In this document: positions 3,601-54,700 of the stretch, one piece after another
Numbering within the stretch: position 1 is the stretch's first letter
Layout: each line of letters starts with the position of its first letter
Source: Odontesthes bonariensis
Taxonomy: Eukaryota > Chordata > Actinopteri > Atheriniformes > Atherinopsidae
Direction: 5' to 3'
Length of the DNA stretch: 64,000 nt
Assembly: GCF_027942865.1 (NCBI RefSeq)
Contig: NC_134509.1
Span: 6,796,254-6,860,253 of the forward strand
Notes under the pieces: model-generated
What the model was told of the DNA's origin: nothing
What the model saw: the letters and a program-made list of their open reading frames with translations, nothing else
The model's database searches: none
Program-made: the position numbers and the translations under genes

Positions 3601-6600
3601 GTAAAAGCATGTACACACTTGTATCTCTCTGTTTATAGCATACTCCACGCCAGGCTCCACAGCTCCCAACCGGTTTGTCGGCATCGGAACACGGGACAAC
3701 TTTCTGAATATCCCCCAGCAGACTCAGGTACCCTGCCAGCCTCCCTCATTTACTTAACATCCACATATCCACCTCTCCCTCCTCCTCCTCCTCCTCCTTC
3801 TCCTGTTGTGTCTTTTTCTTCCTTTTCACTCATCACCCACTGCAAGCCTAACGCTGCACATTGCTGTTCATGGATGAGACTTGCCAAAGCGTCTGGGTTT
3901 ACATGAACAAGCATGCCGTTCAGATCGAAGGCCACAATACAGAAGCAACACTCACAATGACTCTGCTTTGGGAACAATCAATGATCCAACCCATAACCAC
4001 TGTGATAAGTAGTGATCAGCTCTATGAATACTTTGTGTAGACATCCAAAAGTGTGACCCATTTACCTGCAGTGGTTTACTGAAGTCAGGACTTCAGTATT
4101 TTGTTAGAAGAATCCCAAACTTCTCCTGGAGTATTTTGTGTCTTCATCAGCGGCGGAAGATTGTTGGGATTGTAGATGTATTCATGTTTAAACTCTGTAA
4201 CTTCTGAAAGTGATTCTGTCTCATTTGATCATTGAGATATGGTTTATTAACTGTTTGAAGACTTTATCAACTGAAGCAGAGTGGTGCCCAGGTATCAAGG
4301 CCTTTAGTTTCAGTATTGGTTTACAGTGTCTATATTACTGTAGATTCCCCACAGTGAATGTTAGCTGTGCCAGTTAGTTTCAGCTCCAGCAGTGTTGATT
4401 TATAACTGCAAGGCCCCACAGTGTGTATTAGTGCAGCGTGTGAGGCCGGGAGTGCAGTACATTGTGGTTTCAGCTTTGGCTGTGCTCTGCCACTGGGCTG
4501 CAGTGTCTTGGGCCTCCTCCATCACCAACACAACTTTTCTCATTAGGGGCTAACCGCACCTGCCTGCAGCCAACTCAGCCCTCCTGCCCTCCCCACACAT
4601 GGAAACAATCTGCATTCCTCCTCGGCACAGCTCCGTTCAGCTGCCCCCTCCTCTCACACCCTCAAGTGCATCAGCAGCCCAGGCTCCTACTCTCCTCCTG
4701 CTGCTCCCCGAGCTCCACACCTGCACCACTCTCCCACAGATGCAGCTCTGGCACCGAGGGGACATCCAAACACAATCCAAATGCGTGTTAGCGCTTTTAC
4801 AACAACTTGCATCTGCTCAGAACGCCTATTTTCTCCCGCTGTTGGTTAGCAGAATTATTTAAAAAAAATGTGCACTTTGGACATTTCTGCCAGATTATTT
4901 ATTTTATTTAATTAAGCGCAGAGAGAACTTGGGCATCGGTACCAACAGCTCTCAGTTAGCTGAGCCTAGTGGGTCAGTGACAGCCTCAGCCAGAGTGAGG
5001 AACAGAGGTCTCTGCCTGTCCTGCTGTTCTCTGGCATATGGCGAGGTTCAGGAGAAGGCCCTGCCAGCCCGCCTCGCTGCCTGCTAGCCAACAAGCCAAG
5101 ACAGAGGGAACAGGTCTTCCCACTGGTGTCAGAGCAATAAGCAAAGAAAAGTTGGTCTGAGGGGCTCTCTGGTGGTGAAGCCTCAGCTATGCAGGGGTAG
5201 AGCAGGGAGGTAGGGGAGCATGTCTGAAAAAAGTACACTGAAAAAAAGAACTCATAAGATTTACTTAAAAAACCCTTTGTAAGTATTTGCACTCAAATGA
5301 TTTAAGTAATATTTAAGGCTGCAATATCAAGTAACACTCACTTGCCAGTATCAAGTAAATTTTACTTACCATAAAACATAACAGTTTTGAAGATATTAAG
5401 TAACATTTACTTAATTACATCTAAGCTATATTTTTGAAAATACACAACCTTGCCTCTCCCTTCAGCCCACCCCTCGAAACCCGCCTTCAAAACACATGAA
5501 CGAGTCACGAGTCTGTGAACGCGCAGGGGTGAGGGGTGAGGGGGGCTGACGGTTGATTGGCATGTCAGAATCCAATAGAAGTAACTCTCGTCATTACTTC
5601 TATTGGTCAGACATTTCCTCTTGCTACACCCTCTACAATGGACTAAAATATAATTTTTTTTTTCCAAACATTCAAATGGGGTTGTGAGGAGGTTTTCAGA
5701 CAATATGATAAAAAATGCTCCAGAAAACATCTCATACCCCACCTTTAAGAAGCTCTAGTTCTTACTGAATCTTAAAAATACAAGGTAGAAACTATGACAG
5801 TTACTCTAAAAGAGTTTACTTCACCAAAAAGTCACTTTTTTCATTGTAAGAGGGAACATGACGAGAAAAAAAGACAGAGGGAGTTAGTTGAAGCTCGCTG
5901 CACTCCACAGTCACGTCCCGGCTGTCTGGTTGCCAGCAGCAACCAGACATGATGTCATAGGCAGTTGAACTTGGACTTGAAGGGGGGGGGGGGGGTTAGA
6001 GCAGGAAGGGGGGGTCACTTTCCACTGCCAAGGATTACATTGAGAGAGCCGGAGTAAGAGAAGGAGGAAAGGAGAAGAGGTGTCAGGGAAGTTGGAGCAG
6101 ACAGAGGAGTTGTCTCCAAACACCGAAAGGAGGTAAAGTTAGAGGAAGGAGAAAACAAGGTTTAAGGGGTTGAAGCTTTTTCGGAGTTTGCTCGAATGTG
6201 TGTGTGTGTGTGTGGGGGGGGGGGGGGTGAAGTAGTTTGCTGTTGAAGGTGTGGTGAGTAGTTTCTCTCTGCGAGCCTGTGGAATGTCAGAGGGAGCCAG
6301 AACCCTCTGGCCTGTGCCAAAGCCTCCGCTCTGCCCTCTTATCAAACTGAGAAACTGGATCCCTGGAGTAGCTGCTCTCAGTAGCTTTATAGTGTAGCCT
6401 GAGACCACTCGGGCCCATAGAGCACAGACATATTAACAGGATCACTTTACATGTAAACTGGTAGCAAATGACAGAGCAGCTACAGTTCTGTGCTGGATCG
6501 CTGGAAAACCTGACAGACTCACACAAGCAATTGCTTTTGTCACTTTGTAGAAAACACAACTGTTTCACACGCGTTTTTAAAAAGGTAAGAGTTGGTCAGC

Positions 6601-19636: not shown

Positions 19637-22600
19637 ATGGGGAACTGTCTGTTTTCACAAGGTGCGGATGACCTGTCGCTGCTGAACGAGTCCGAGGGGG
19701 GCAGTCTGCCCGGAGAGCCACCGCCGCCCTATCAGGTGAGCATACGGGGTCTCAACTTTAAGTCAGCCCGGGGACTCAAGTCGCCTCTGTAGTTTTGATA
19801 AGCCATGACCTCAAAGTTTAATTAGTTTAAATTACTGATGGGAGTATCTATAATTAGCATCAACAGAGTGACGCAGGCATATACGTATTTATTTACTGGT
19901 TTTATACACAAAATATTGCCAAAAGTATTCACTCACCAAATCCAAATAATTAAACTCAGGTGTTCCAATCCCTTCCATGGCCACAGGTGTATAAATTCAA
20001 GCACCTAGACATGCAGACTGCTGCTACAAACATTTGTGAAAGAGTGGTTCACTCTCAGGAACTCAGTGAATTCCAGCATGGTACCATGATAGGATGCCAC
20101 CTGTGCAACAAGTCCAGTCGTGAAATTTCCTCGCTACTAAATATTCCACAGCAAGGGCGTAGGAATGGGTTTACCATTGGGAAGGGCACATATCGGAACA
20201 CATCCCACCAATTCCCCCCAGTTCCCATGCTTATGTTCCACAGTCAACTATCAGTGCTATTATAATAAAGTGGAAGCGAATGGGAACGACAGCATCTCAG
20301 CCATGAAATGGGAGGCCAGGTAAAATGACAGAGCAGGGTCAGCGGATGCTGAGGCACAGTGCGCAGAGGTCGCCAACTTCCTGCAGAGTCAATCGCTACA
20401 GACCTCCAAACTTCATGTGGCCTTCAGATTAGCTCAAGAACAGTGTAGAGACACATCAGATACATCACCAAGTGCAATGCAAAGCACGTCGCCACTGGAC
20501 TCTGGAGCAGTGCAGATGCGTTCTCTGGAGTGATGAATCACGCTTCTCTATCTGGCAATCTGATGGAGGAGTCTGGGTTGGGTGGTTGCCAGGGGAACGG
20601 TACTTGTCTGACTGCACTGTGTAAAGTTTGGTGGAGGGGGGGGATTATGCTGTGGGGTTGTTTTTCCAGGAGCTGGGCTTGGCCCCTTAGTTCCAGTGAA
20701 AGGAACTCTGAATGCTTCAGCAGACCAAGAGATTTTGGACAATTTCACGCTTCCAACTTTATGGAAACAGTTTGGGGAAACAGTTTGGGGATGGCCCCTT
20801 CCGCTTCCAACATGACTGCACACCAGTGCACAAAGCAAGGTCCATAACGACATGGATGAGCCAGTTTGGTGTGGAAGAGCTTGATTGGCCTGCACAGAAT
20901 ACTGACCCCGACCCGACACCTTTGGGATGAATTGGAGCGGAGACTGCGAGCCAGGCCTTCTCTTCCACCATCAGTGTCTGACCTCACAAATGCGCTTCTG
21001 GGAGAAGATTAGATTAGATTAGATAGAACATTATTAATCCCTTTAGGAGGTTCCCTCAGGGAAATTAAGATTCCAGCAGCACCATTACAGAAAAAAATAT
21101 TATAAAAATTATGCATGTTCAAATGTTCAAAGATTTCCATAAACACACTCCTAAACCTTTTGGAAAGCTTGCCCTGAAGAGTTCAAGCTGTTATAGCTGC
21201 GAAGGGTGTGCCGACGTCATATTAAACCCTATGGGTTAACAATGGGATGTCACTTAAGTTCATATGCGTGTAAAGGCAGATGAACGAATGCTTTTGGCAA
21301 TATAGTGTATAAAATAATACACATAAATGCAACAAATGTTATCACTTTTAAAGTGTCAGCGTATAAAGACAAATAGGTGCATAGACAGTCTGTGTTGTAC
21401 ATTCAGAAAATAAATGCAGCCTGTAAGGCCAGGATGAGACAATTTATAAATGTTAACTTTTTATGACGACCAAACTCCCAGGTGCTTTTATAGGATGTTT
21501 AGCTACTTTGTCCTTGTGTTAACAAGAAAAAAAAAATTGGAATCACCACTCTTGAGGATGTTTATCAGCTGAGTGGAAAACAAAATCACAGATAAAAAAA
21601 AAAAAAAAAAAAAACTGTTTTAGGGAACAGTCTGACTTTGTCAAATATGCCGAAAAACATTCAATAAGATAGTTGTGATTTATGTTTTTTGTTGTTTTTT
21701 TTTTTTCCTCCGATAGGTAAAGGACAAAAATGGTGGCATCATGAACTGAAAATAAAATCACAATTAGTGCTTTGTGTTACCTTTCTACGGCTTTTGTGAC
21801 GTCTTGAATTAGTTGAGGCGCGGATTTTAATGATGAAAAACGTCAGTCTTCATCAATCGCATTCCAACTTTGTCTCGACAGATCAGTTTTGCAGGGGCTT
21901 AAGGCTCACGGTCTTAAGGCTCACAGGCTTAAGACCGAAGTACTGTCATGGACTTTTGTCCACCTCTAACTTTTCCATTCATTCGTTTAGAAATCAGTGA
22001 TATACTGTGTTCAGGATGTGCGGCTCTATTGTGCAATCTAACTGGACACGGCCGACATAGTCATATGTTCGTCCTTTAATTTTAGTTTCATACCTCCAGC
22101 CATGGGGGAAAAAAAAAAGCCTTATGGAAATGCTAACCGTGGTGCTTAGCCTTCAGCAAACATGTGAAGTCTGGAGCTGCTTGGAGTTAAATCCAATATG
22201 GAGGCCTCTGCTTTAGTTGACTCATTCTTCCAGAGATGACACAGGTTGTGTTGTGACCCTTCTTTTCCAGGAGCGCACCCAGCCAGTGCCAGTGTTCCAT
22301 CCCAACCCAGGAGAGAGTCGCCTTGCCAGCCAGCTGACCGAAGAGGAGCAGATCCGCATCGCCCAGCGAATCGGACTCATCCATCACCTTCCCAGAGGCA
22401 TCTTTGACCCGGGCTCCGACCCTTCTGATAAGAAAGTTAAAGAGTGAGTCTTAAATGGCGTTAGTTTGATCATGTTTTGATCTCCGTGCTCATGCATGAG
22501 TACGCTGAAAGGAATTGCTCAAAGTTTATTCATCATATGTTTAATGGTCTTAAACAACCAAATCGAAGTTATTAGAGTGGACATAATCTGATTCTCTCCA

Positions 22601-27027: not shown

Positions 27028-28411
27028 CTATAAAGCATAGATTCCCACACTGACGGTAGCCAGAGCTACAAAGAGTCCCAGCACCATCCTGATCAGTGGG
27101 GCACTGTTGATGATTCCTATGATCTGGAGTGTTTTAGCAGCTACTGGTTTGGAGTTTGTTAAACGGTCCTCCGGCTTGTGTTCGGTGACACTCAGCATCT
27201 TCTGTAAGTCTTCAAAGACCTGTAAAACAAGAGAAAGTGCCTCAGCTGTTTGTGTTGCGAATAATTAACTGTGAGAGCAAAGGGTAATCTCATGTATGCG
27301 ACTACCTTCAGTGTGGCATTTTCTCTACATGCCCAAACGTTTGCCTCTTACTTGGATGTTTAACTCGAAGGCCCTGACGGCTTCCTCCAGCACGCCGGTC
27401 CTCTCCTCCTCTGTCAGCTCCACGCTGTTCATTCGGCTGCGATAGAGCTGCTTGAAGAGGTTGGGGCTGGAAACGCCAGGGAAAGCAAAGAAAGACAGAC
27501 CCTCGCCTCCTTTCAGCCCCATGGACTTCTGTGCGATCCGACCAAGAACCTGTCCCCCCGACAGGTCTCCAAGGTAACGGGTGTATGCATGGGCAACTAG
27601 GAATTCAGGGTTTTCTTTACCAATCTGAAAAGTACACAGAGATAAACCGTGTTAGTGGAGATCACCTGGTAGAAAAATGAAAGCGATTTGTGTTGGATCT
27701 GTGACGGAAAACTCTGGCCCACCTGACGGAGTCGGTGGCAGTATCTTTCAGTAGCGGCGGGAACAACCACTTTCTCCCTCCAGCCTGGGCCGTAGAAGTG
27801 TTCCAGGTCTTTCTCGATGGCCTCCAGCCTGGCCAGTTCAGCGGGGAAGTAAATGGGTGCGACACCAGGGTGGTCGGAGTTCCTATCCATCTCTTCCTCT
27901 AAAGCCAGGTAGATCTCATAGAGAGAGCACAGGAGGAGCTGCAGGGGGGAGGAGAGGTGGTGTCAGGCAAAGATAAAAGTAAACTCATCTCCACATTGGA
28001 TTTGAAGGGATTACTACCTTATATTGTGGAAGTGTGACTCGTCCCCGTTGGAAGCTCAGCATGAGTTCAGTGTTTTCTGCTTTGACATGATTCTCCTTAG
28101 TTACCTTTTTGATTTGCTCCGACAGGTCCCTGAGAGAGGAGATGAATCGCAATCAGCACAAGGCAAACTCGATTTTAAATCTTTTTTGTACTTTTAGGCT
28201 TCTGTAGAGACCGAGGCCACAAAGTTGTTTCACACAATTGACAGAAAATGAAAGGTTATGGGAAGAAGCTGTGAAATCAAAACTCTGCACATGTGCTGTT
28301 ACTGGTAACTCTCCTTTGGTTGCCACAGCATTATTAGTGGATTTAGAGATGTGAAAAATCTCACCTTTCAGTCATCTGCTCTGCTGCCTGAGTCTTTCTC
28401 TCTGTTTCCAT
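27028..28411 (-). CDS. hmox1: Heme oxygenase 1
   Basis: Five coding exons join in phase: 28411-28365, 28129-28018, 27938-27723, 27624-27352 and 27219-27028, giving 279 residues (human HO-1 has 288). The enzyme opens heme to biliverdin, CO and ferrous iron, using electrons from cytochrome P450 reductase at the ER. The proximal heme ligand is His30 in [12 protein letters not shown]. The family signature is present in [15 protein letters not shown], followed by [15 protein letters not shown] hydrophobic C-terminal anchor ([20 protein letters not shown]) fits ER insertion. HO-2-type Cys-Pro heme motifs are absent and hmgxb4 lies next door as in human 22q12, so hmox1 is preferred to hmox2. It may be one of two teleost copies. 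Confidence 0.95.
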
Positions 28412-32080: not shown

Positions 32081-35000
32081 ATGGATGGTGAAGCAAACGT
32101 AATGAGCCCGAGAGACAAAGAAAGACCGTACAAAGACTTTCGGGTGATGAAGTACCTGGAGGCTGAGGAACGTGGCACCAAGAGCTTTCAGCAGGTGGAC
32201 CAAGTTGTTTTCTTTATTTATTTCTTAATTGGCCTTCAGTTGCAACAACAAATACTTTAATGATGCACATGGGAACCAGTTTCTCTTGTTGTTGCAATCC
32301 TGTACGTGGATTCTTACGGCTGATGTTCCTTAACAACCCTTTTGGAGTTTGGTGTATCCTTTCACACTTCCAGTTATCATAGATATAACAATTGGCAGCA
32401 TTATTAGATCACTAAATTGTTGTTGTGGGCAAATATTTTAGATAAGTAATATTATATGTTTCCCTGAGATTTCTTGATCATCCTAAAAGTGTTTTTATTA
32501 CTTTTTTTTTTCAGGAATCAAATGGCTCCTTGATGGAGAGGATACAACATATTGGTAAGGCTTAAACTTCAGCTTTAGCTGTGCAGATTGAATGAATGAC
32601 ATTTCTATTTATTATACAATTTGTGCTGCAGATAATCATGAGTCTGCTGTGTCTACGTGGACGTTTTATTAGTTGAAATTGATCTCATCAGGTACAAACC
32701 CGATTTCCAGAAAGGTTGGGACATTCTTTTTTTTCTAAGTGCAATAAAAGCTTAAATCTGTGATTTGTTCATTTATTTGAATTTTTATTCAACTTTATAA
32801 AAGTCCAAAGAAATTATTTTCAGTGTCCTGACTAATTTGATTGTATTTAGAAAATATGAATACAATTTGATGCCAGCAATACACAGAAAAGTTCAAAGAA
32901 GAATTTTTTTTTTTTTTATAGAAGTAGCACAGTTCTGGAAGACTCTGCAGTCGGGTGATTAATTGGTGAGAGGTTAGGGTGTCCATTGGGTACAATAACA
33001 GCACCCACCAAAAGGCTGAGTCTTTCAAAGCAAGGATGGGATGCGGCTCACTACTTTGTGTCAAAGTCTGTCAGGGAATCATTAATATTTTTTGTATTAT
33101 ACATCTGCGAAGTATAATACGGTGAAAAGATTCAGGGAGTCAGGGGAAATCTTTGTGCGTAAAGGCTGAGAATGGAAACCCCTGTTTGGTGTGCACGACC
33201 GTTGAGCCCTCAGGCAGCAATGTTGAGGAACCATCTCATGCAACCAGTATAGCCACATAGGCTCGGGAACAAATTGGAAAATGATTCAACACGGCCTGCC
33301 GCTGCATCCAGAAATGTAACCTGAAACTGTATGACACAAGGAGAAAGCTATATATGAACTCAGCGCAGAAACGCTGCTGAGTCCTCTGAACACAAGCTCA
33401 TCTCAGATGACAGAAAGACAAGGGACACATGTTCTGTGGTCCTATGGGTCCATGTTTCAGCTGCTTTTGGGAGAAAAGTGCCATCTGGCTCTTCATGCCA
33501 TTTATGAGGAAGGCCATCCAGACTGTTCTAAGCGAAAGGTGCAGAAGCCAACATTTGTGATGGTATGGGGCATCCATGTCCATAGCATGGATGACCAGCA
33601 TTATGTGGGACACTCCTATTGATGCATAGAAGTTCATTGGAATTTTTAGATGTTTGCGACCGTCAGATTCTACCGGGAGATATGCAGGACAATGCCAGGC
33701 TGCATGACTTAGAACAGCGTGGCTCCATGCATACAGAGTGTGCGTGTTTGATTGCCTAACTGCACTCCAGATCTGTCCCTTACTGAAAACATGGTGCATG
33801 ATGAAGAGGAGAATCGGGCAACAACCGCAGACTTTTGAGCAGCTGAAATGCTGCATTCAGTAAGAAGGGACGCAGATTCCTCCTGAAAAATCCCAACGAT
33901 GAGAATCCTCAGTTCCCGAATGGTTTAAAATGTGTTTGGTATTTAAATGGAGGGATTATGTCTGTCACAATCTTTTCTTTTTTGTGTGTTACTGGCATAA
34001 CATTTAAAATTTGTTCAAATTTTTCTAAATGCAATGAAGTTGGTCAGTGAGTATACTGGAAGCCCCCCCATACTGGTATTGTGCCTATTTCAAGCAATTA
34101 CACATTCATGTGTCATTGGAGTGTTTTTAATTTTGGCCCATTTCCCAACTTCTCTGGAAATAAGGTTTGCATGATTACATTACTCATTACAGGGAGTGTG
34201 CGCAAAGATGGAGCCTTTTTTAAACCCAGTGTGTATGATTTCATTCTGTGTTGAGGTAGTGTAGTATGACTAAATTGTAGATAAAGAAAACAGGGGGAAT
34301 GGAAGTTTTTGGCTCGGCTAATGAACTGTGCAAAAAGTGATGGTGTCAAATTTGCAAAGACTCTGATTGTCCCGTGTTATTTAGTGTTGAAATGCAGCTC
34401 ACAGATAATAGCCGGTCTGATCTTGAACTTCATTGTGCAGAGTCCTCTGGTACCTTCCCTGCATATCCAGTCTTTGTATCACAGGACAGATGGACAGTGA
34501 GAGGAGAGGAAGAGGTGACTACAGGCTGTGAGAAAATGACATCAAATGCATTTTACTCTTAGGTTGAATTTGTTGTAAAATGTTCAAATGAATTGATTAT
34601 CATCAAATATGATATCATAGTTAGAGTCTAGTAAGACAGACAAGTGTGTGTGTGAGACAGAGAGAGCATTAGATAGAGAATGCTTGCACGTATATATGTA
34701 TGTATGTATATGTGTGGATCTAATAACTATGACTGTTTTGTGAACTCTTCTTCAGAACATCCAAGACAACTTGTTGTATTCATTTTGCACAGTAGAGGGC
34801 AGCAGAGGTCAGGTAATTATAACGCGCTCAGTAGCCAAGGATATTTTCTTATTACCGTTTCAGTCAAATATATTTTTCAACATTTATGTTTCCACCAGAA
34901 GAGTCCAAGTCCCACAATGGAGCAGTGGGTATGTCTAGATAAGCAGCACAACATGGCAGACGGTCAGGTAAAGACACCTGCCCCCCCAGTGTCAGACAGG

Positions 35001-36975
35001 CCTCTTTTGTCTATACGCATTCCTGGTGCAGTCACAGCCATTGCTAACTCTGAAGTGACTGGCCTCTTCACTGACACCAGCTGTCCCTTTGGGTCTTTGT
35101 GCGGTTTGACCAGTTCAGCCTGGGAAGCTCTCGGTTCCACATCCAGAAGTCCCTGTTCCTCTGACCAGGATCCTGTCAGTGCTGCGGCTCACTTACACCT
35201 CTTAGGGGAATCCTTGTCTCTGATTGGACACCATCTTCAGGAGACAAATGTGAGTAGATAGAGTTAAGACAAAAAATAATCTAAAATATGCTGTTAATTT
35301 CTACTTAGAGGATTTATTATAGTTTATTTTACTTTGAAAATGCCCCGTTGAGATAGTGTATATATATATTGTGGCCCTCCAAGTAATGCTAGCTTTAATT
35401 CTCCACTTCTTCATTGAAAGGAGGGATTCCTGGTGTATGTTGGGGCAAAAACTGCAAATTTACTGCAGTGCTCAAAAAACCTTGTGAATCAAATGTTTTA
35501 CTACAGTATAAAGTCTGACAGAAAGCAATTACACAAAAGAATTTCTGACTATTAGACATCACATTATGTACTTTTTTCTGTTTACATTCAAAGTTGAGCC
35601 ACTGAGCAAATGTTTGTTGGGAAAAAGATAGTAATTTGAGATCTGTGAGCACAGTTGCTCACTCCAACACGTGCCAGGATCATCCAAATAAATCAGTCAA
35701 CAGAAAAGTTTGTGGACTATAAGCTGGACTGTATAGGACTGAAATAATTCCGGTAGGCTATGTACAGTCCTGTTTCACAGTAAGTGGGGATGTTGAAACT
35801 GCAAAAGCTTCTATTTTGAGACCTGCATAAATAAATGTGATGCCATCAGCACATTTTAGAAAATTTGTGACAGGGGCATCTAAAGACTTGTAGCAGTTTA
35901 GTTAAAGGGATAGTTCGCCTCTTTTGACACGAAACTGTATGACATCCCATACTAGCAATATCATTTATGAACATTTTCTTACCCCCTGCTGCGTCCTGTG
36001 AGCAGAGTTCCAGCCTCGTTTTGGTGTTGACGAAGGTAGTCCGGCTAACTGGCTGGGGCCACAAAAATAAAGTGTTTTGCTTCTCAAATCAATATGCGTT
36101 CAAAAGAGTAATACATTTGCATCACAAAATCGTTGTCCAGGAAAAAGTCAGACCTCACAATCGCTTGGCGCTATTTTATCTCTCCCTTCGTATCACTGCG
36201 TGCTGTGTAAACTGTGCAGACCGAGCAGTCCCCTGCTTCCGAGCAGCAAACACTGTAACAGGTGCGGCTGTCGGCAGGCGGCAGCAGGCAGTGATACGAA
36301 GGGAGAGAAAATACCGCCAAGCCTCAGCACAACAATTAAAAAAAGCCAGCCTCTGCACTTAGTATGGGTAACATGGAATGCCAAATCTAATTCCGCATGT
36401 ATTAAAACAGTAAGATGGTTCTGGAAGTGGGAGTTAAACTGGTCTGCCTGCTGCCCAGATCTGCCATCCATTGAAAGCTTTCTATTTTGTAAAACATAAA
36501 GCATGATAAAAAGAAGCCCCGAACTGCCCATCGTGTGAAAAATCCTTCATCAAGCACAAGTGGGAAAGCATTCTGCTTTCAATACCAGTTATGGATCTTC
36601 TATGTCTTCAAACTATTTGATTGCTGTTGCAACATATTCAGTGCTTAAAGGGGTCACGCAGGCGTCTCTGTGCCTCTCTACAGAAAATGGTGTGCATGTC
36701 GAGTACCTTCTCTCTACTCTTGGACTCTCTGCTGTGTGCTCTGGCTCCACTAATGGGCCTCACCACACAGATACCTGAGCTGGCAAGCTGCACAGAATGC
36801 ACATTGGTGAGCAATGCAGCCAGTTAACCACGCATACACACTCCATACTTTACACTCTGTTACATGTGCACGGTTCACCTAAGGGAAATGTTACCTGTTA
36901 AGAGAACACATGCTTATATCCCTTTTTAAGGCCTCCACTCTGGAAAACCTTGCTTATGTGATGCCTGGGCTGTAA
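32081..36975 (+). CDS. hmgxb4: HMGXB4-like protein lacking an HMG box
   Basis: Probable exons are 32081-32194, 32515-32554, one ending at 35249, 36684-36806 and 36931-36975. An untranslated exon likely ends at 31414 (CAAA|GTAAGT). The long exon's start is uncertain: AG sites at 34756, 34864 and 34899 all precede the same open frame. The C-terminus matches human HMGXB4 as I recall it: AAHLHLLGESLSLIGHHLQE, then STFSLLLDSLLCALAPL, LTTQIPEL and ENLAYVMPGL-stop. The N-terminus has ERPYKDFRVMKYLEAEE, like the family's YKDF block. HMGXB4 is a nuclear chromatin protein linked to Wnt control and the NURF complex. No HMG box or lysine-rich middle is found, so this copy is much shorter than human (~600 residues). 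It is divergent from hmox1. Confidence 0.8.
32695..34169. mobile_element. Degenerate Tc/mariner-class element (ISRm11-like) in an hmgxb4 intron
   Basis: The left end CAAACCCGATTTCCAG and the complement of the right end (CTCTGGAAATAAGGTTTG) match as inverted termini, with TA before the left end. The interior, for example GTGATGGTATGGGGCATC and GGATGACCAGCATTATG, resembles a broken transposase gene. The frames are full of stops. The subfamily name is from memory. Confidence 0.6.
35906..36330. mobile_element. TTAA-flanked repeat with internal hairpin, truncated at right
   Basis: It starts AGGGATAGTTCGCCTC after TTAA (35902-35905). An imperfect hairpin joins 36164-36199 (ATCTCTCCCTTCGTATCACT) to 36288-36321. 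The second arm ends early. It lies in an hmgxb4 intron. The overlapping short reading frames on both strands come from this hairpin. Confidence 0.55.
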
Positions 36976-39817: not shown

Positions 39818-42800
39818 ATGAGTGAGCAGAGCCTCCGGAGGTCCTCACCCTCAGACCTCAGGTTGATTCTTCTGGGGAACATTGGATGTGGGAAGACATC
39901 ATCAGCGGACACTATCCTGGGCCAGCCGTCCCACACCTCTTCCAGTGACTCTAAGAGTTGCCAGCAGCGACAGGGCTTCAGTGACGGCAGGAATGTGACT
40001 CTGGTGGAGGCTCCAAGATGGTACTGGAACGGTGGAAAAATGGAAGAAAGTGTTAGAAAGGAGACGGAGCGGGCTATGACTCTGGTGGCACCAGGTCCAC
40101 ATGCTGTTTTGCTGCTGGTGCCTGTTGGCCAGTTCACAGAGGTTAGTGGACGTTTGCCCTCCAGTTGCCTTTTTCCCTACATGTATCAAAGATGAAAAGG
40201 TGTGATCAAATTACATTTAAGTGTAGCTAGCATAGTATACAGTATGCTGAACACATCTGTATGTCCAACATAGACTGAATTTTTCAGTTAAGTTTCAAAT
40301 GATGACTTTTTAGTACCTGTTCGTTCCCAGATGGAGGGCCGGGTTCCTGCAGAGTTGGAAGACTTATTTGGGACGGAGGTGCTGGATCACACCTTGGTGC
40401 TGCTGACCTGTGGAGACTACTTGTTGAGAAGAACAAAGGAGGTATTAGAGATTTACACCTACCCCTTGTTTAACATCATCAAAAAAAAAATAAAGTCATT
40501 CTTGACCCAATATCTAAAACTGTATGTTAGAGATCCACCTTTCATTAAAGCTCACTGTTGGTACAATACAGTCCACTAAGCTCTCCCTGATATAACTTCT
40601 GGCTTTGATTATGTTAACCTGCTTTCAAACAATAGTACGTTATGTTAAATATACTGTATTTTGAAAAAAAAATGGTGGTTTGCTTCCACCTTCTGGCCTT
40701 CAGATATTTTTGCATTATATACTAACCTTTCACCGGGCTCAGTTTCTACCAATTAAGGTACTGTTTTAAAAAGCTGAGGAGGAGCAAAGAAATGCAAGTC
40801 AAAATTCACTTACGCCTCGTTGTTTTTTCCACAGGAATACCTTCAGACAGAACAGCCGGGACTGAGGCAGATAATTGAACGCTGCGGAGGGAGGTACCAT
40901 GTCCTTAATAACCGTCGGCGACAAGACAGAGAGCAGGTTCATGAGCTGGCGGAGAAGGTGAGCTGGGAAGCTCTGAATTAACGGTTTTCCCACCATACGT
41001 CATAACTGAGCCAGTTATCTGTTGAGCAGTAGGCATCCTGCTTCATCTCTTTAAACGCAGCTGCATTTCAGGACTGGTCTGGGTTTAATGATCACATTCA
41101 TTCGCAGCCACAGCTGTGCAGTTGTTTTTACGAAGTGAGTCTGTCCGTCTGTTCTGGCAAAGTGGTGTCCTGGAAACACCAGCTGGAGCGACAGCTACCA
41201 CTAAAGTGTTTTTAAAACTTGTTGTATTGATCAGATGCAAAGACCATGATCAAAGATGTTTACTCATTAGACAAATCACCAACATTTTAAAGGATGTCAC
41301 ATCGCAAATTGTCCTCTTGATACATTGCAAATGTGATTGGCATAAGAATCATCCAAGAAAACCAAAGTTCCTGAATTCTCCACCTGTCACCACTTTTCAA
41401 GGCGTAGGGATGGGACCAGTAACCCAGTACAGTAAACTGTGAATTCATATTGATAATTCTCTCCCTTATGCTTCACATTCAGCAGTTGCTTGAAAAAAAA
41501 AAAAAGATTGAAAATAAAAGTAGACCTTTAGAATCAAATCTTTCTTTAAGGGCCAAAAGGATGCTAGCTGTGACCACTTCCGTGTCTGCAGGATCATGGA
41601 AATGTTATTTACTGGCGTGCTACTTCTGTACTGTAATACTTCCACACCTGTAAGATACAGTTTGCCACAAAGGATTGAGCTTCATTACCGATGTTAAAAG
41701 CCTTACCCACCACTTTGCATTGTATGCTTGAGTTGAGTGGTGTGCTTTGTCCACCCGTACACTCAACCGCTGGCATTTTTGGTCTGCTTCTAACGTCCTT
41801 CAAAAAAGTCTGGGAAGTTACCATGATTGTTCTGAAGGCATATTCATTTTATCTTTCCTTCAAACCTTTACTGAGAGAGGACAAAAGGCATTTTGAAAAT
41901 GCTGCTCCATTGGTTTATTGACGAAAATCTCAAATGACTTTGATATCTGCTCTTGCGAAATGAATTCAAGTAAATATTAAACATATTGGAGGCAAATACA
42001 TATGACGGTAAATGCGACCTTAGTTGATCAAATATTTAGGTATGATGTTATAGCTCCTTTAAATTATTGAATTAAATTAAATTAAATTTTATTTATATAG
42101 CGCCAAATTACAACAAATGTCATCTTAAGGCACTTCAAAGATACAATCCAATTCAATCCAATCAAATCCAATTAATTAGATTCCAAATTAGTTCAATTAA
42201 TACATACAAAGCCAATTTAAAAAAGTAGCCTATCTAAGGAAACCAACAGATTGCACCGAAACGTCTCTTCAATCCAATTCCCCATCCTGAGAGTGCACGA
42301 GGCAGCTGTGGAAAGAAAAACTCCCTTTTAACAGGAAGAAACCTCGGGCAGAACCAGACTCAGGAAGGGCGGCCATCTGCCCCGACCAGCTGGGGGTTGA
42401 GACGACAGGAAAGAGGGGACAATAAGCACCATGAAACCAGGCCAGGAATACCTGCTGAGAAAGAGAAACACAAGATTATGTCATATGCACATGGAAAGTA
42501 AAGGAGAGTAGAGTGAGGAGAGGTGCATCATGGGAGGTCCCCATGCATTCTAGGCCTAGAGCAACATAACTATGAGATGTTTGAGGTTCACCTGAGCCAT
42601 CCCTAACTATAAGCTTTGAGGATGTCTGCTTCCCGGACATTTACTGGCAGCTGGTTCCACAGAGAGAGGCCTTATAACTGAAGGCTCTGCCTCCCATTCT
42701 ACTTTTAGAAACTCTCGGAACCACAAGTAGACCTGCAGTCTGAGAGCAAAGTGCTCTTTATGTGTATGTGTAAATTATGTGTACAAATTTATTTTGTTTA

Positions 42801-45800
42801 TTTATTTTTTATTTTATTTAAGTTGTCTTTGTTGGCCTGAGTTGAAGCCTGTTTTGGCCAAGACTCTCTTGTAAAAGAGATTTCCAATTTGACTAATATT
42901 CCTGGTTAATTAAAGGTCAAATATAAAGCTGAACTCCCCTGTCCTGAAATTCAAATGTAACATTTTTTTAATTCCTGCAGTTAAAGTTATGGTTTTATTT
43001 GTTTATCAATAGGTGGACAGTATGGTGCAGAAAAATGGGCTGTACATCAGGAAAACTGACCAGGAGAGAGAGCTGGAGAAACGAGTGAAAGAACGAAAGC
43101 GAGAACTCATGGAAAGTTACACAGCACAAAAGGAAGAGACAAGAAGGGCAAAAGCATCGAGGAGCATCTCTGACAGGGTTGATCAAGGAGAGGAGTCCGT
43201 CAGCATCTTGGAGCGGATGAGAAGAGAAGAAAGAGATGAAACGGAGGGAAAAGTGGTGGAGATCCAAGTGTCTAACAGTCTTTGTTCAGCTCCAACACCG
43301 GAGCCGCAGTCGTATTCGCAGCCGCGAGATGACCGGCTGTTGAACAAGACACCCAGTTACAGACTAAATGCAGGTAAATGAGGTGCAGCTGGGGCATGTC
43401 CAATGTTTTTACACAATTTGTCCTGCATCTCAGTGTTAACACGAGTTGTCTCAGAGCAAATACCTCTGCTAAGGCTGAGTAGAAAAAATCCTTGCATCCA
43501 GATGTGGAAGGAGATCAAAGGTTTGTCACTTTAAATTTGCCCATGACCCACCTCTGGTAAAATTTATATTCAGATGAGTTCAGCTTTTTGAGTAACTGTG
43601 TTAAAAAAAAACAGACAAAGCTGAGACAACCACATAACATGACTCTTGAATTAGTAAAAAGGCAAAAGTGAGCAAAGAAAATATTAAAGCTTTTCCTCTG
43701 ATTTTGTTCCCTGCAGATGGAGCCACACTCTCACAAATTTCTGAGGTTAAATCAACCCCAAAAATCACATATACTCGTAAGTCTCTGGACCTCGCTGTCT
43801 TATGTCACTTTGATGGCCCATTCACTTCTATGATATTGAGTAGGGATATTAATGATCTTGATTTCCAAATGTACTTGATGATTTTCAGTTCACCACAGAA
43901 TCAACAGTTTTGAGGAGAAAACACCAGAGTCGTCTCCTACCTCCTCTCCTCCTCCTTCGCCCGTCTTCTCGCCTTCCACCCACTCCTCGCCAAAGTTTAC
44001 CGTTTCTCCGTCTTTGTTCTCAACATCCTCCTCGTCTGCCTCATCCTCCTCTTTGTCCTCGTCCTCTCCGGAGCTTCGCCTGGTATTGCTTGGGCGATCC
44101 GGAGCAGGGAAAAGTGCAGCTGGCAACAGCATACTGGGGCAGGAGGTGTTTGACTCCCGTCCAGACAGCTTCACGACAATCACTCAGAAGTGTGAGAAAC
44201 AGAAGGCACTAGTTGATGGAAGAAAGGTCAGTGTATAAAAGTATTAATATTGCCAAACCTCAAAATTATCATTGTCATCCTCCATCTTCTTGTGTAGCAT
44301 TATAAAACAATGCAACCAGTCAGATTTCACTGGAATTAGCTTCATGTTGTCTTTTGTCTCACCCGCAGGTGGCAGTAGTGGACACTCCTGATTGGTTCAA
44401 CTCAGAGCAGACTCCAGAAGAGGTGCGAGCTCAAATCTCCTCCTGCGTTGCTTTATCTAGCCCTGGCCCTCACGCCTTTCTCCTGTGCGTCCCGTTAGAC
44501 CAGCCTGCAAAGACCGAGCTGCAGGCTCTCGGGGCCTTTGAGACTGTTTTTGGCTCAGCAGCAGTCCAGAGACACACCGTGGTCCTTTTTACTTACGCAG
44601 ATCGACTGAGGGAAAGCGGGACAGCTGGAAACAACAGTGTGGAGGACTACATCGCCAGTCAGCGAGGGGATTTGTTGAAACTTGTGGAAAAATGTGGGGA
44701 TAGGTTTCATGTGATGGAGATGGGAGAAGGTTGGAGGGAGAAGAGGAATGTGGCAGAGCTACTAGAGACAGTGGAGCAGACTGTGAAGGAGGCTGGAGGA
44801 CAATGTTATTCTTCTCCTGCTTTTCAGGAGGCAGAAAACAAAGTGAGGCAGAAACAGCTCGAAATTTCAAGGGAGAGAAGGGGCAAAAGGCCAGAGCAAG
44901 ACAGGATAGGAGATGCTAGGCGGCTTAGCTCTGAGAGGCAGGGGCTTTATTCATGCATGCAGCCTGTAGATGAGGCAGAAGAGGACACGAGAGAGGAGGA
45001 GATTGAGAAAACAAGGGATGAGGCAGAGATGAGTGTAAGCACCATAAACCTTGAGAGCCTTCCTCCTATTACACATTCCACCATGTCCCCTTCACTTCTC
45101 TGCTCCATTATGGAGAAAATGGAGTCCAGTGCAAAGATGTTACCCAAACTGTTATCGGACAGCTCTGCTCTGTTTGGAGAGGGAGCAAAAAAAGTAAAAA
45201 GTAGTCCAGTGTGGGGAAAAGTTGGCAGTGGTGCACAGAATGTCCAGAAGGTAGTGGTTGACAGTTCTGTGTGGCAAAAGTTTGGAGCTACTGCAGAACA
45301 GGTTTCCAAAGCAGTAGGAGATAGGGTTCCCAAGGTAGTGGTGGATGGTTCTGCATGGGTGGGATCTGGAGCAAAAGCAATGGGGGCAAGTCCAATGTGG
45401 GAGAAAGTTGGTTCAGGGGCCAAACTAGTGGCTGACAGTTCCATGCGTGTCGGATCTGGGATTGGAGCCGGGGCAAAGAATTTGGCGCAGAGTTCTGTTT
45501 GGGGAAAAGTAGGTTCTGGTGCCAAAACTGGAGCTAAACTGGTGGCAGACGGTTCAGTAAAAGTTGGAGCTGGGCTCGGAGCTGGAGCAAAGAAGGTGGT
45601 GCAGAGTCCTGTGTGGGGGAAGGTGGGCTCTGGGACAAAAATGGGGATCGAAATGGTGGCTGAGAGTTCAGTGTGGGAGAAAATTGGGGCTTCTGCTAAA
45701 CGGGTGCCTAAAGTAGTGATTGGAGGTCTGCTGCTGGGTCTGGTGTTAGGCGTGTTTTTGGGGGGGATGATTGGTGGAGCGGTCGGGGCAGCCGCTGGAT

Positions 45801-45949
45801 CTGCTGTTACCGAGGTGGGGAGACGGAAATTTAGCAACAAAAACACATCAGAGAAGATGGATGAGGCTACAAGAAATGTTCAGGGAATGATGAACAACGG
45901 CGTTGATGGCGTGATTAAAGAAGGAGGAAAAAGTTTGAAAACTGAATGA
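39818..45949 (+). CDS. Double GIMAP/AIG1-domain GTPase with repeat tail and hydrophobic C-terminal segment
   Basis: Eight coding exons chain in phase: 39818-40141, 40331-40441, 40835-40957, 43013-43373, 43717-43776, 43889-44226 and 44369-45949, with an untranslated exon upstream making the eighth. They give about 965 residues. AIG1 domain 1 (about 11-200) has the P-loop GNIGCGKTSSADTILG and GPHAVLLLVPVGQFT, but EAPRWY replaces the usual DTPG. A charged coiled-coil-like linker (about 190-300) and a Ser/Pro linker follow. Domain 2 (about 388-590) has GRSGAGKSAAGNSILGQ, VVDTPDWF and FTYADRL. Residues about 717-884 hold nine degenerate copies of SSVWGKVGSGAK. Then comes a glycine-rich hydrophobic stretch (about 887-920) that could enter membranes. 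GIMAPs are septin-like GTPases of immune cells that coat membranes. I know no family name for this layout; GIMAP8 also has several AIG1 domains. Function is inferred. Confidence 0.85.
42065..42770. repeat. Dispersed fish repeat in intron 3 of the double-GIMAP gene
   Basis: It starts after (AAATT)n with TTTATATAGCGCCAAATT. It continues with AGGCACTTCAAAGATAC, GAAAGAAAAACTCCCTTTT, GAAGAAACCTCGGGCAGAAC and GGCGGCCATCTGCCCCG. These words mark a very common teleost non-LTR-associated repeat. No open frame is present. Confidence 0.65.
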
Positions 45950-48608: not shown

Positions 48609-51600
48609 TCACCGCTCATCATTCGTGGCTGCCACCATCCTTATCTGACTCTTGACCTTCCCCAGAATGCTATGGGTCACCAAAGAAGTCTTAGCACCAA
48701 AGCTCTCCTCGCTGTCCGTGTCTCCATAGCAACTGGAAGTTGCTGGGGAATTAGCTAGGACGATGACTGAATCATTTGAGTCCCTGTGGGCCGACACTGT
48801 GGCGGGACGGACTGTTGCTGGTGGAGTGTCGCAATGAAAAAGAGGCCTCCGTTTGTTGCTGTCCAGCCCGGCAGCAGCGCTCTCATCCTCAGCGCTATCC
48901 TCAGCTGAGTCCCTGCTCTTGTCCTTGGCCTGGTCATTGAGCAGGGTGACGAGGAAGTTGATGTACTTCACAGCCAAACGCAGGATTTCATTCTTACTCA
49001 GCTTCTTGTCAGGCGGGTGTGTGGGGATTAGTTTTCTCAGCTCGGAGAAAGCCCCGTTCACGTTCTGCTGTCGCCAGCGCTCGCGGCTGTTGGTGAAGAC
49101 CCGACGGGCGAGTTTCTGAGGAGGGCCTGTCAGAAACACGTAAACGCTGTGTAAATGTGCAAGACCTTAGAATATCATACACACATTTTCCTGTTGTCAA
49201 GAAATACCTTGAAAAGAGCAATGAGTGAATTTTTCCCCACTCACAAGTAGCCAAAACCTAATTTCTCTACGTATCAGACTTCCATCAGTTTCCAAGGCAA
49301 TCTAGACGATTATATCAAGTTCTGTTATTACCATAAACATTCCCATAATCTACATGTTGCCATAACATGTATTAATCCTCTACTTCAAAAGGACTTTAAA
49401 CAGATGTACTTTGTTCTTCCATTTGAATGATGTCACTGAGATGTATATACATCTCCAGCAGGAACTAATAAGCATGGTGTTACTAATGAAGTAGTGAAAT
49501 ATTGAGTTCAGTGAAAAAATACAAACTATCCCCAACCCAATCCACTGAATATGATTTGAACATCAGCAGCAATTTCTCCAAAACAGTTTGAACTGATGTC
49601 ATTTTCTATTTTGTCTCACAGACTCACATTCGTTGATCTCCATCTCAAAGTGTGATGACGGCCTCCTCTTGACGCGACTGTTATTGATGACGCCATAACC
49701 TCCTCCTGAAGGTCCCAGGTACGAACTATAGATGAAAAAAAGCACACACACATAATAATGTTAACAATTAACCTAGAAATTAAAATGACTGAATAGACAG
49801 AATGAATAGAATGAATAAATGGCTAGATAGATAGCTAAAGATGGTGGGACTCTGTTACGGTTAAGTTGATTGAGTGTCCGAGCTCAGTTTCAGCCCAGTT
49901 CCAAAAAGCCAGAGTAACGACTGATTCTTTTTAGAGGAGGAGGAAATAGATCAATGCATTCTGCTACTTAACCAACCCAAAGAGAAGAGTGGAGAGGATC
50001 TTATTCCCAGACCTCCATGACAGATAGGGAGGCCATAGTTATATCCAGTGTGAAAATGTGTCCTACTTCTTTTAACACAGTAGATGCTTTTCTGTTACAC
50101 CCTGCAAAACTGTATAAAGTTCTTTGTAGAACAGAGAATAGATGAACAGTAGGAGGGCTTAGTTAATGACTGCAAATGAATGCCTCTCTTCACAAGAGCA
50201 AGTGATGAGCTGCCAACTCCTGGACCCCCAAAAAGAGCTCAAAGGGTTCTGTTTTGTGGCATTTTGTCAGTTTAATGGCTAAATTTAGCCATCATAAAGT
50301 GTTTTCTTCAGGTTTTTCGGGGATAAATGCTCAAAAGATTTCAACGGTTCAACTCCTCTTTAGCAAACCAAATGTTCCTTTGCGAGGTCGCTTTTTAAGA
50401 GCACACATCCTGCTGTCATTTTCACATTTCACAAGTGCGGTGCGGGCACTATAAATCATAATAGGAAGTCATGAAATCCCAGCAGTTGAAGTTGAAAATA
50501 GAAACCAGCAGAGCATCATCACTAGCTCAGGAAGTTATATTATAGCAGGTTTAATAGTTTTGCTGTACACATCTGTTGGTGTCAAATCTGTTCACTAATT
50601 CTTTCACATTTTCTTCATATGCTTAAATTTGACTTTCAGGATTATTTACCTGCGATGAAACTGATATTCCACAAGCTACATTTTTCAATTGGTTATTGGA
50701 TAACACTACCAGAGTTATCTGCTGATCTTGTTGTCTCCAATCTTAGGGCTTGGGTAGATCAGATAGGATCAGATAGAAGAGTGAAAAGTACCAAAAGATT
50801 ACACAGAATGACACTATGATAATTGCCTTGTGACTTCATTTATTAGCTCTTTTGGTCTTCAGATTTCTTCAGGTAAAATTAAAAGAAGAAGCACAAAACG
50901 TGCCACAAACAGGTACAAGAACGATCGGCTTGATTTTAAAAGGTTATAAGTCAAAAGAGTTGGGAAGAGACATACTTATGGAGGAATTCAAATTAGTTTA
51001 ATCTCACCTGGTCAGGAAGGGGTGTGCAGTCAGGTACTGCTGAGCTAGCAGGGGCCCCGGAGAAGCAGCTGAGGGGCCTCCAGGACCTCCAGATAATCCA
51101 GAAGCTCCAGGGCCTACCATGGGTAAACAAGTCTGCTGGCTGCGCCGAATGTCCCCGTGTATGAGGTTAGGAATTGGATGGAGGGCAGTCAAAGGCGTAT
51201 TGGGGAGCGGGAGAGGAGGCTTGCTGTGACCAAGACTGATGACTGGAATGTGTGGAGGAAGAGGTGAGGATGATGAGGATGAAAGGAGGGCTGTGGTGGT
51301 GGTTGGAGGGGGCAGAGTGCAGGGAGAAGTCTTGGCTGGTGCTGGGAGGAGTGGAGGTGGAGAGGAAAGACTTGGCGACCCATTTGTTGAAGCTGCAGCA
51401 GTGGCAACGCTTTTCAACCCCCGTAGTTTTTCCTCCTCCTCCTCCTCCTCCTCCATCTCCACGTTGGCAAGCTCAGGTGTAGCAGTTGTATCTGCTTGGT
51501 GGTTGGTTGACACCGTTGTCAGGGTGATGGGAGACCGAGCTAAGATGGCAGTAGGGGTGTCTGTCTGCTCAGTTTTGTTCACAGGATGTTGGCTGCTGAG

Positions 51601-51750
51601 AGGGTCCAAGGATGCTAGATTCTGGCTCTGGAGGGGACTGTGCTGCTCAGCAGACACACAGGATGGTGAGGAGGTCCTGGAGGATGAGGGGGGGCGAGGT
51701 AGGTCGTGAGGTGAGGCAGGTGAGGCAGGGGGGTTCAGCTTCTCCATCAT
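48609..51750 (-). CDS. lyl1: LYL1, basic helix-loop-helix transcription factor
   Basis: Three exons join in phase: 51750-51008, 49725-49628 and 49126-48609, giving 452 residues. The first exon encodes a long Ser/Pro/Thr-rich N-terminus starting [14 protein letters not shown], with an acidic run of glutamates near residue 100. The second gives [15 protein letters not shown], like the matching TAL1 segment. The third carries the bHLH domain (about 286-342), with [20 protein letters not shown] in the basic region and helix 1 and [19 protein letters not shown] in helix 2. TAL1/LYL1 proteins pair with E-proteins on E-boxes and work with GATA, LMO2 and LDB1 in blood and endothelial cells. QKLARRVF (TAL1 has KVVRRIF) and linkage to nfix favour lyl1. 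The large N-terminus is longer than in human LYL1 (about 280 residues in all). Confidence 0.9.
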
Positions 51751-54700
51751 GATGTTGAAGTCTCTTGAGGGAACCTCGTCAGTTTCAGGCTCTCTTTCTT
51801 CTCAGCTGTCCAGTAAGTGTCTCGTCCCCGTTGTGCTTTTATGGAGGTTTGAATAAAGCCAATGAACTCCCCACTTTACCATCAACAGCTTGTCCTGCAG
51901 GGCACTTAAACCTCTTCTAAGTGTATGTTTATAGAGTTTATCAATAGAGGTGACTCACAACCCTTTGTTTACTCTTCCTCTGTTAAGTTTTTCTGCTTTT
52001 CCTCGTATGAAATATAGAATATAGATTTTCCTCAGACCAACCTGAAAGCCATCAGTCGTCCTTTTTGATGCCAGAGTTAGCATGCAGGTTTTTGTGTCTT
52101 TGATGGGTCTACATGTCCCCCTCATCCAGGTCTAGTCAGCTTTATTCCTATCACTTAATATCACAAAACACAAATTGGCCTCTAAGAACTACAGAGCGCC
52201 TTCTGTCACTACATCATGGTTTCGGATTCGTTCAAACTCCCCAAAACTTTCATTTTGATGCAGCCTCGCTCATTTTTCCCGCCTCCGATGGGTCTTGTGT
52301 AGTAGCAAAGTATGAGCCCTCACTTATTCCAGTGGAACAACTGCAGTCCTCTCAGTCTTGAAGGAACGGCTACTCCTCCGTTGTCGACTCTGGCTCCAGC
52401 GTGCAGCAGACACGGCTGTTGTGTTTTGGTGTGAGGTGGATGTCTGTATTTTTTTTACAGTACATCCTGAGTGGCAAATTTTAAGTTTAGAACAAGTCTC
52501 GAGTGGCTTCTCTTTATGAGTCCGTCCGTCTATCTGTCTGCGTGAGGATGTGACTCAAAATCCTTGCAAGGATTCAAAATGCTCCAAATCCTTGAAGGTT
52601 GGATTGACATCAAAGAGTCTGTTGAACAAAAGAAAAAAGGGGGGAAAAAGGTGCACTCAGGATACGCAAAATGTTTGATGCATATTTAGTGAAGGCAGTA
52701 TGTTATGAAACATGCCTGACATTTCAGTTCACACACAAGCACCACAACAGCTGGTACTAAAACGTAAGAGGGACTGTTGCTGTTTGAGGATTCCTCAGTG
52801 GACGATGGTCTGCAGTTCAAAATGTAAATTCAGCACATGGATGGACTTAAAAAGCTGGATATTGAGGAACTTTGTGAGTTGTACTTTATTGAGTACAAAT
52901 GGAAAATAGTTTTGTACTCTGAACAGCAAAGTGGACGGTTCCTATAATTGCTCAGGTTTTGCAATCGCAAGTGTTCCTGTTTTGTTTTTTCTGGTCGTCA
53001 TGACTTTATTTCGGACAGTTCTGTCTTTCGCAGTCATGTCTGGGGACGACACATGCATGTGGCTATGAATAATATCATCATCATATCATCAGTATCATAA
53101 TATCATTCAATATCATTTTGCAGTGCCATTATATTTAATGTTATGTAAAAATATCCTGGTTAAAACAACTTTTAACTAAGCTGCGCATTCGGAGAGGTGA
53201 AGATTCATTTTTATCTTGGTTTTAAAAAAGCAAGACGCAACAACACATGATAACTTATAACGAAAGGCTCTAGTTCTTAAAAAAAATGTTTCGCATTGCA
53301 AGTCAAAAATACAAAGCAATTAAGTATCCTACTTATTGAATATGCCACGTATTTGCATTACATGCAATGTTTTCAAATTTAAATGATCCTTATTGAACAG
53401 AAATTTTGATTACACAATACCGGTATGTTGTTAATTCAATGTGATCTGTAGACTGTCATGGGAAAACTAATATTTATATAAGAATTTGTTAGTTAATGTC
53501 CATCCAAGCAAACTGATTTCCAATTTAATTTCTGTCTTTATCCCTTAACATTAAAATCATCTCATTCTTTATCACAAAAACTTTTTTTTACTTGGTATAT
53601 TCTATTGAAGGCTCCTGCACATGTCCCACATGTGCCATATGGTACTTTGGCTTGGTAATCTATATTAACAGGATTTAAAATAAGCTGCAGATTTGTCTTT
53701 ACTAAAATAGTGAACAAAAAAAAAAGTATAGATTATAAAAGATAAATTACCCCAAATACTTACAAACACATAGTGACGTCCACTGTGGCTCCTGCGTCAG
53801 TCAGGCAAACTCTGTCAGTTCAAGTGATCTGCGAACGCACATGTTGTATATGCACAGCGCTTGACGTTGTCTTCCTCCTCCTTCAGGTCTCTCGTACTCC
53901 TCTGCAGCCTGTCAGCAGCTGTCTGTCAGTGTCTGAGGTCAGAACTGGAGCCAAATTGTCTGATACCACTCAAAAAAAAATCCGCTCGCTTTGGAAATGA
54001 AAAATTATTATTATTAAAAAGTAGTTACAAAAGACACAACATTACAGTAAGGGCACAGCATTGAAAACGTATATATTTGTTTTTTTAGTTGGGAAGTTGC
54101 TCCTTAGAACGAAGACGCACTCAAAGCACGGAGATAGACGGTAAGGGTCTCTGCCACCCCCCCCTCGGCCACATGTCATCCTCACCTCTCTGTCTCTGTC
54201 TTTCTCTGCCCTGTCTGTCCCTATCCCTCTTCCTCGCCAAGAAGACACAATGCTCTAGTTGGTAGCCAGAGTTCTGGTCCTGGCAAATCAGAGGTGGGAG
54301 AGAGAAAAGGGAGAGAGAAAGGGAACCATGTTGCAAGGAGAGTTTTCCGCTCCCTGCTGGACAAGAGGATGTGCTAGTACAATGTGGTGGCTGCTGATAA
54401 GAGCCTCAAAAGCTGCCTGTGGTCTGTAGATAAGGAACCTTCCCCACCCCTCCTCTACCCCCACCACCAATACACACACAAACAGGTTCACGCCTACATG
54501 CATGCACACACACATAAACACAGTACAAGACTGGTCAATCCCAGACTTTGAGAGGATTTGGACTCTTTCCAAACAAAGATGTGCCATTGCACTTACATCA
54601 CAATGTATTAAACAGACAGAGCAGACAGTTATACAGTGCATAAATAAACAAAGCCACGGATGACACGTTTATCTTCGCTTAAATTGGCTACCTTAATCGA

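Follow-up and report, generated by a model that had tools for sequence, protein, structure and literature searches.

The 64,000-nucleotide stretch of Odontesthes bonariensis DNA analysed here (the window; C4:6796254-6860253 of a 945-Mb genome) contains a gene whose 965-residue product combines two AIG1 GTPase domains with a tandem repeat array and a hydrophobic, glycine-zipper-like segment. The gene is present in the DNA as seven exons in one frame, and its sequence assigns this teleost protein to the GIMAP/AIG1 family. Somewhat short of even confidence, we favor a model in which it would act as a poorly hydrolysing, two-domain GTP-binding GIMAP scaffold, placed on an internal lipid surface by the hydrophobic segment and by contacts of the array.

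Structure of the gene

The seven coding exons join between positions 39818 and 45949 (Table 1). All six introns have GT-AG borders, with phases 0, 0, 0, 1, 1, 0 that link both domains in one frame, as the original prediction had proposed. From these features we infer a single transcript of seven exons. We find it scarcely credible that the two AIG1 domains belong to different genes or transcripts that were wrongly joined. A 2.1-kb intron does separate exons 3 and 4, but the phases and splice sites are compatible throughout, and no methionine occurs between residues 255 and 555, so that domain 2 and its P-loop have no start of their own and need one upstream. The P-loop-exon frame of a paralogue on C26, described below, likewise has no methionine before the P-loop. 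Charged stretches rich in E, K and R were seen by eye after both AIG1 domains. A 310-residue open frame runs antisense to exon 7 (44950-45879, minus strand); it had no Pfam match at E 0.1 and is probably a by-product of the composition of the coding strand.

Table 1 Positions, in window numbering, of the exons and other features of the dual-AIG1 gene
Feature	Position	Strand	Description
Coding exon 1	39818..40141	+	aa 1-108; P-loop and core of AIG1 domain 1; Pfam AIG1 1.5e-14 for the exon alone
Coding exon 2	40331..40441	+	aa 109-145; domain 1; GT-AG, phase 0
Coding exon 3	40835..40957	+	aa 146-186; end of domain 1; GT-AG, phase 0
Coding exon 4	43013..43373	+	aa 187-307; charged extension, start of linker
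Coding exon 5	43717..43776	+	aa 307-327; linker; phases 1 and 1
Coding exon 6	43889..44226	+	aa 327-439; Ser/Pro-rich linker and P-loop of AIG1 domain 2
Coding exon 7	44369..45949, stop included	+	remainder of domain 2, then an acidic/charged segment, the repeat tail and the hydrophobic segment; AIG1 1.5e-27 for the exon alone
Repeat array	45203..45712	+	aa 718-887; nine cores, seven with W and two without; main period 38 aa / 114 bases
Gly-zipper-like hydrophobic segment	45713..45817	+	aa 888-922; from hydropathy, modelled helix 887-927; common to the C26 paralogue
Predicted last helix	45845..45934	+	aa 932-961; block pLDDT 50-68, single-sequence model
Polyadenylation signal AATAAA	45979..45984	+	30 bases past the stop

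The two AIG1 domains and their nucleotide sites

The prediction of two AIG1 GTPase domains in one protein agrees with the Pfam AIG1 profile (PF04548), which matches the 965-residue protein in two stretches (2.4e-88; 295.4 bits against a cut-off of 27), the match to domain 2 covering residues 389–599. Aligned with each other over 248 columns, the domains share 32% identity. Both P-loops (GxxxxGKS/T) are intact, reading GNIGCGKTS in domain 1 and GRSGAGKSA in domain 2. At the G3 motif, where the aligned paralogues have DTPG, domain 1 reads EAPR and domain 2 DTPD. With a profile match so far above the cut-off, this change is, as judged from the sequence, a departure inside the family.

The conserved box, GRFT in three aligned paralogues, reads GQFT in domain 1 and DQPA in domain 2, and its arginine is thus gone from both. 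The box is GRYT in GIMAP7, and we take the GRYT arginine to be the arginine finger of that protein. Its absence from both domains points to weak or no GTP hydrolysis, and the two domains probably bind GTP but hydrolyse it poorly. The loss bears on hydrolysis, not on GIMAP/AIG1 membership. GIMAP7 reportedly stimulates both its own activity and that of GIMAP2, through dimerization and a catalytic arginine finger (PMC8066113).

The repeat array

The repeat had been counted as nine copies, a number that we recover and refine. Seven cores, chosen by eye as were all others, carry a tryptophan (at residues 718, 738, 766, 780, 814, 852 and 872) and two, at residues 796 and 834, are degenerate and W-less; a tenth, weak core may be present near residue 705. 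The main period of 38 residues resolves into 20 + 18, with SSVWGKVGSGAK-type and GSVKVGAGLGAGAK-type cores alternating in the best part of the array. Identity autocorrelation over residues 696–890 peaked at lags of 38 (z 7.1) and 20 (z 6.4) relative to 2000 shuffles, the strongest lags being 38, 20, 34, 76 and 16, and Tandem Repeats Finder returned a 114-base DNA period (1.9 copies, 76% matches, score 265). The array is rich in Gly, Ser, Ala, Val and Lys, and its seven tryptophans are spaced 14 to 38 residues apart. Residues 696–890 carry a net charge of +15 and include 31 glycines among 195 residues, as well as six prolines.

Comparison of eight of the nine cores (16 residues each, without the core at 766; 28 pairs) gave a mean pN of 0.42 and a mean pS of 0.69, where pS is near saturation, the pairs are not independent and some single pairs are reversed. 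For the three 38-residue units pS was 0.61 and pN 0.48, with pN exceeding pS in one of the three pairs. This pattern among the cores hints at selection on the protein sequence.

The exact tail was found in no well-described family: no Pfam family scored above its cut-off on the tail (the best, DUF456 at 0.0011, lay below its own), and no solved structure matched at E 10. Exon 7 gave two pattern stretches in viral contigs and nine in prokaryote genomes, where fish genes are not expected, and no relative in either set. The tail sequence was not found in open-access literature text, and a search of the open-access literature for a GIMAP with an amphipathic tandem repeat in teleosts gave nothing relevant among the matches listed.

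Amphipathicity of the array

Hydrophobic moments were computed on the Fauchere-Pliska scale, which is used by Heliquest, as means over 18-residue windows of residues 696–890. The mean moment at 100 degrees was 0.255, a value reached in 8, 9 and 13 of 1000 period-preserving permutations under three schemes; the same permutations gave values as high in 19–28 of 1000 at 98.2 degrees and in 2–4 of 1000 at 105 degrees. In the 18-residue windows at the nine cores the moment was only 0.14–0.34. The helical amphipathicity of the array is thus weak but above chance. At 160, 170 and 180 degrees the z values against shuffles were −1.7, −0.1 and 0.9, revealing no beta-type periodicity. When AlphaFold2 was run on the single sequence, most of the array was unstructured (pLDDT about 27; mean pLDDT 41.0 for exon 7 and 43.3 for the tail), an outcome that, for a single-sequence model, decides neither for nor against a helix.

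The array resembles those of perilipin 4 and alpha-synuclein in being long, tandem and weakly amphipathic. The moments printed in the part of the source at hand are 0.257 for Plin4, 0.30 for alpha-synuclein and 0.35 for Plin3, values not computed exactly as our sliding mean of 0.255 (PMC5889406). At about 170 residues the array is also longer than the 66- and 132-residue Plin4 arrays tested in cells: according to the same excerpt, the 66-residue array is cytosolic, and the 132-residue array, largely cytosolic in yeast, gets to some droplets in HeLa cells (PMC5889406). Unlike these proteins, the array has a main period of 38 rather than 11 or 33 residues and includes tryptophan and proline, and no sequence kinship is evident; the Plin4 array is described in that excerpt as almost free of aromatics, compared with the seven tryptophans here (PMC5889406). 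We rejected membership in the perilipins, as no perilipin family appeared when the protein (E up to 1) and the tail (E up to 0.1) were scanned with Pfam, and likewise a perilipin 11-mer/33-mer register, which the strongest autocorrelation lags do not include.

The hydrophobic C-terminal segment

The glycine-zipper-like hydrophobic end that had been anticipated is evident at about residues 888–922, where Kyte-Doolittle means over 19-residue windows reach 2.46. The segment has seven GxxxG motifs in a 55-residue stretch. In structure prediction of the tail, to which the original prediction had looked, the single-sequence model is poor overall; it renders this part as a helix (residues 887–927, block pLDDT up to 80). 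Hydropathy indicates one continuous hydrophobic segment after the array, not two.

Human GIMAP2 is likewise an AIG1 GTPase with a C-terminal hydrophobic part, but its hydrophobic domain is double rather than a single continuous segment. The accessible text on GIMAP2 states that this double hydrophobic domain places it on lipid droplets, gives it one AIG1 domain and mentions no comparable array (PMC8201404). Mammalian GIMAP8 also has several GTPase domains in one chain, but it has three, and the sources as available describe no such tail. Dual-AIG1 proteins of the snail Biomphalaria share two AIG1 domains and a transmembrane segment with the protein described here; they are from an invertebrate, and the available part of the report describes no such repeat in them (PMC7053062).

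A paralogue on C26 and duplicated loci

A search of the genome with the 279-residue tail gave five matches at E up to 10. One was the tail itself and one a significant relative, on C26 (5.6e-8), with the remaining three at E 6.5–9.95. The last, on C13 and C17, were rejected as relatives of the tail, being simple-sequence repeats. No second repeat array was found anywhere in the genome by this search.

The C26 paralogue, from two exons joined by eye (L034/L035), has one AIG1 domain (1.2e-34) and ends in one W-core followed by the hydrophobic end LLGALVGLFVGGPFGGMVGATVGSVATEVGQRK, with no repeat array. The W-core and hydrophobic end are 46% identical between the two genes, and their retention in the paralogue indicates that this module is older than the split. 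As far as the sequences tell, the anchor is common to both genes and the array was gained in the window gene or lost in the paralogue. The AIG1 domain of the paralogue is 48% identical to domain 2 and its sister at 100/98 in a 43-row tree, in which domain 1 falls in no starred group. In the 36 kb of C26 searched, loose settings included, no separate domain 1 was found among the matches listed. The paralogue (L034 ~5678-5818, L035 871-1731) has lost the P-loop lysine, and its last exon is still open; it is a candidate pseudo-GTPase in which the hydrophobic end is retained.

The surroundings of the two genes also correspond. Upstream of the window gene, a frame at 34677-35258 has a counterpart (1.4e-11) before the C26 gene, on the same strand and in the same order. 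On C26 this counterpart is found downstream, by 1.7 kb, of a frame carrying DUF4171 (8.1e-32), which is a domain of HMGXB4, and both upstream genes are probably HMGXB4. Heme oxygenase exons lie in the window at 27328-27962 (minus strand, 3.9e-34), and HMGXB4 and HMOX1 adjoin in human. Together, the matching upstream genes and the nearby heme oxygenase make it probable that the two loci arose by duplication of a block, perhaps in the genome duplication of teleosts.

Other matches between the loci are short or dispersed. A dispersed repeat at 42238-42640, in intron 3, also occurs between the two exons of the paralogue, where a common element likely inserted independently. The stretch at 33.1-33.9 kb of the window matches C26 downstream of the paralogue and looks like a dispersed repeat, and there is a short match at 36.6-36.8 kb (6.8e-6). 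Elsewhere in the window, frames at 20449-20970 resemble a Tc1-type transposase remnant by eye, the plus-strand frame having no Pfam match at E 0.1. A bHLH gene (48612-51801, minus strand, 3e-20), LYL1/TAL1-like by eye, lies beside the GIMAP gene. This is a curious neighborhood, as, according to a review, the human GIMAP super-enhancer is activated by TAL1 (PMC8201404).

AIG1 tails across the genome

The AIG1 family is strongly expanded in this genome, with at least 152 matches. We surveyed the tails of frames of 120 residues or more at 30 loci (L001-L028, L034 and L035, omitting L029-L033 and L036-L039); these frames are unspliced, and some tails may enter introns or end early. A hydrophobic tail segment was present in 8 of the 39 frames that reach the end of the AIG1 domain, five of the eight having at least three GxxxG motifs, a count that includes near-identical copies and, as one of the five, the C26 paralogue. 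A Gly-rich membrane segment is thus a recurring end of these AIG1 proteins, and the distinctive part of the window protein is the array. The claim that the tail is unusual therefore stands for the array, which the tail search located nowhere else in the genome, and not for the anchor, which has precedents in these five of 39 frames and, as far as the sources at hand describe them, in GIMAP2 and the snail proteins.

Multi-domain frames on C7 (L004, L005) end in long charged, coiled-coil-like stretches and may be akin to GIMAP8. At C25:3.92-4.52 Mb, AIG1 matches follow one another in tandem, mostly at intervals of 18-25 kb. Many score exactly alike and are probably near-identical copies; the sequences read were L008 and, from outside 3.92-4.52 Mb, L007.

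Models for the function of the tail

In the model that we favor, the tandem AIG1 domains would bind GTP and hydrolyse it poorly, and the C-terminus would hold the protein at an internal lipid surface, that of an organelle or of a lipid droplet, on its cytosolic face. The Gly-zipper segment (888–922) would enter this surface as a hairpin or a single helix. The basic array (718–887) would stretch out on it as a multivalent and weakly amphipathic helix, much as perilipin 4 or synuclein do. Once loaded with GTP, the domains would then pair with other GIMAPs, as GIMAP2 does with GIMAP7. We infer both the lipid binding and the scaffold role, and a single analogy, that with GIMAP2, suggests a preference for lipid droplets. 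Our confidence is held below even by the weak moments of the cores, the many glycines and prolines, both poor for a helix, the tryptophan content, the largely cytosolic 132-residue Plin4 array in yeast and a model with no helix in most of the array.

Close behind comes the possibility, doubtful in itself, that the hydrophobic segment is the only anchor and the repeat a flexible, disordered spacer setting the distance between GTPase and membrane. The repeat is modelled without confident structure and is rich in Gly, Ser, Ala, Val and Lys, and the C26 paralogue manages without the array. Against a plain spacer are the amphipathicity, which exceeds that of permutations keeping the period, and the core differences, fewer at nonsynonymous than at synonymous sites, with the reservations on saturation and independence given above. 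It is decidedly improbable that the array self-associates, its tryptophans and Val/Gly motifs forming an ordered or condensed polymer that would make the tail an oligomeric immune platform. The spacing of the seven tryptophans would suit this, and Gly-zipper helices often pack against one another, but the array lacks beta-type periodicity and no similar solved sequence was found. The original prediction also had the repeat and glycine zipper insert in or deform membranes. A membrane role is indeed likely; a pore or membrane deformation, to which the GxxxG density might point, is highly improbable, as similar segments occur in other AIG1 proteins, including a paralogue without an array, and a single hydrophobic segment follows the array. 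Deformation found no support.

An extension of the anchor and array model, which we consider unlikely, is a GTP-switched coat, in which a GIMAP with a multivalent perilipin- or synuclein-like array of its own evolution would, as an immune GTPase scaffold, cooperatively coat lipid droplets or damaged organelle membranes, the length of the array choosing the surface. In any case the gene is a variant within the known GIMAP family, not categorically new, and could already have a name among fish GIMAPs without having been described.

To our knowledge, little is understood of how GIMAPs select their membranes. In this respect the window gene can be paired naturally with its paralogue on C26: they have the hydrophobic end in common and differ in the array, the second GTPase domain and the intact P-loop, and comparing them would test directly what a GIMAP gains from an amphipathic array. 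If droplet binding is true, innate immune GTPases of fish would be tied to lipid surfaces, as human GIMAP2 suggests.
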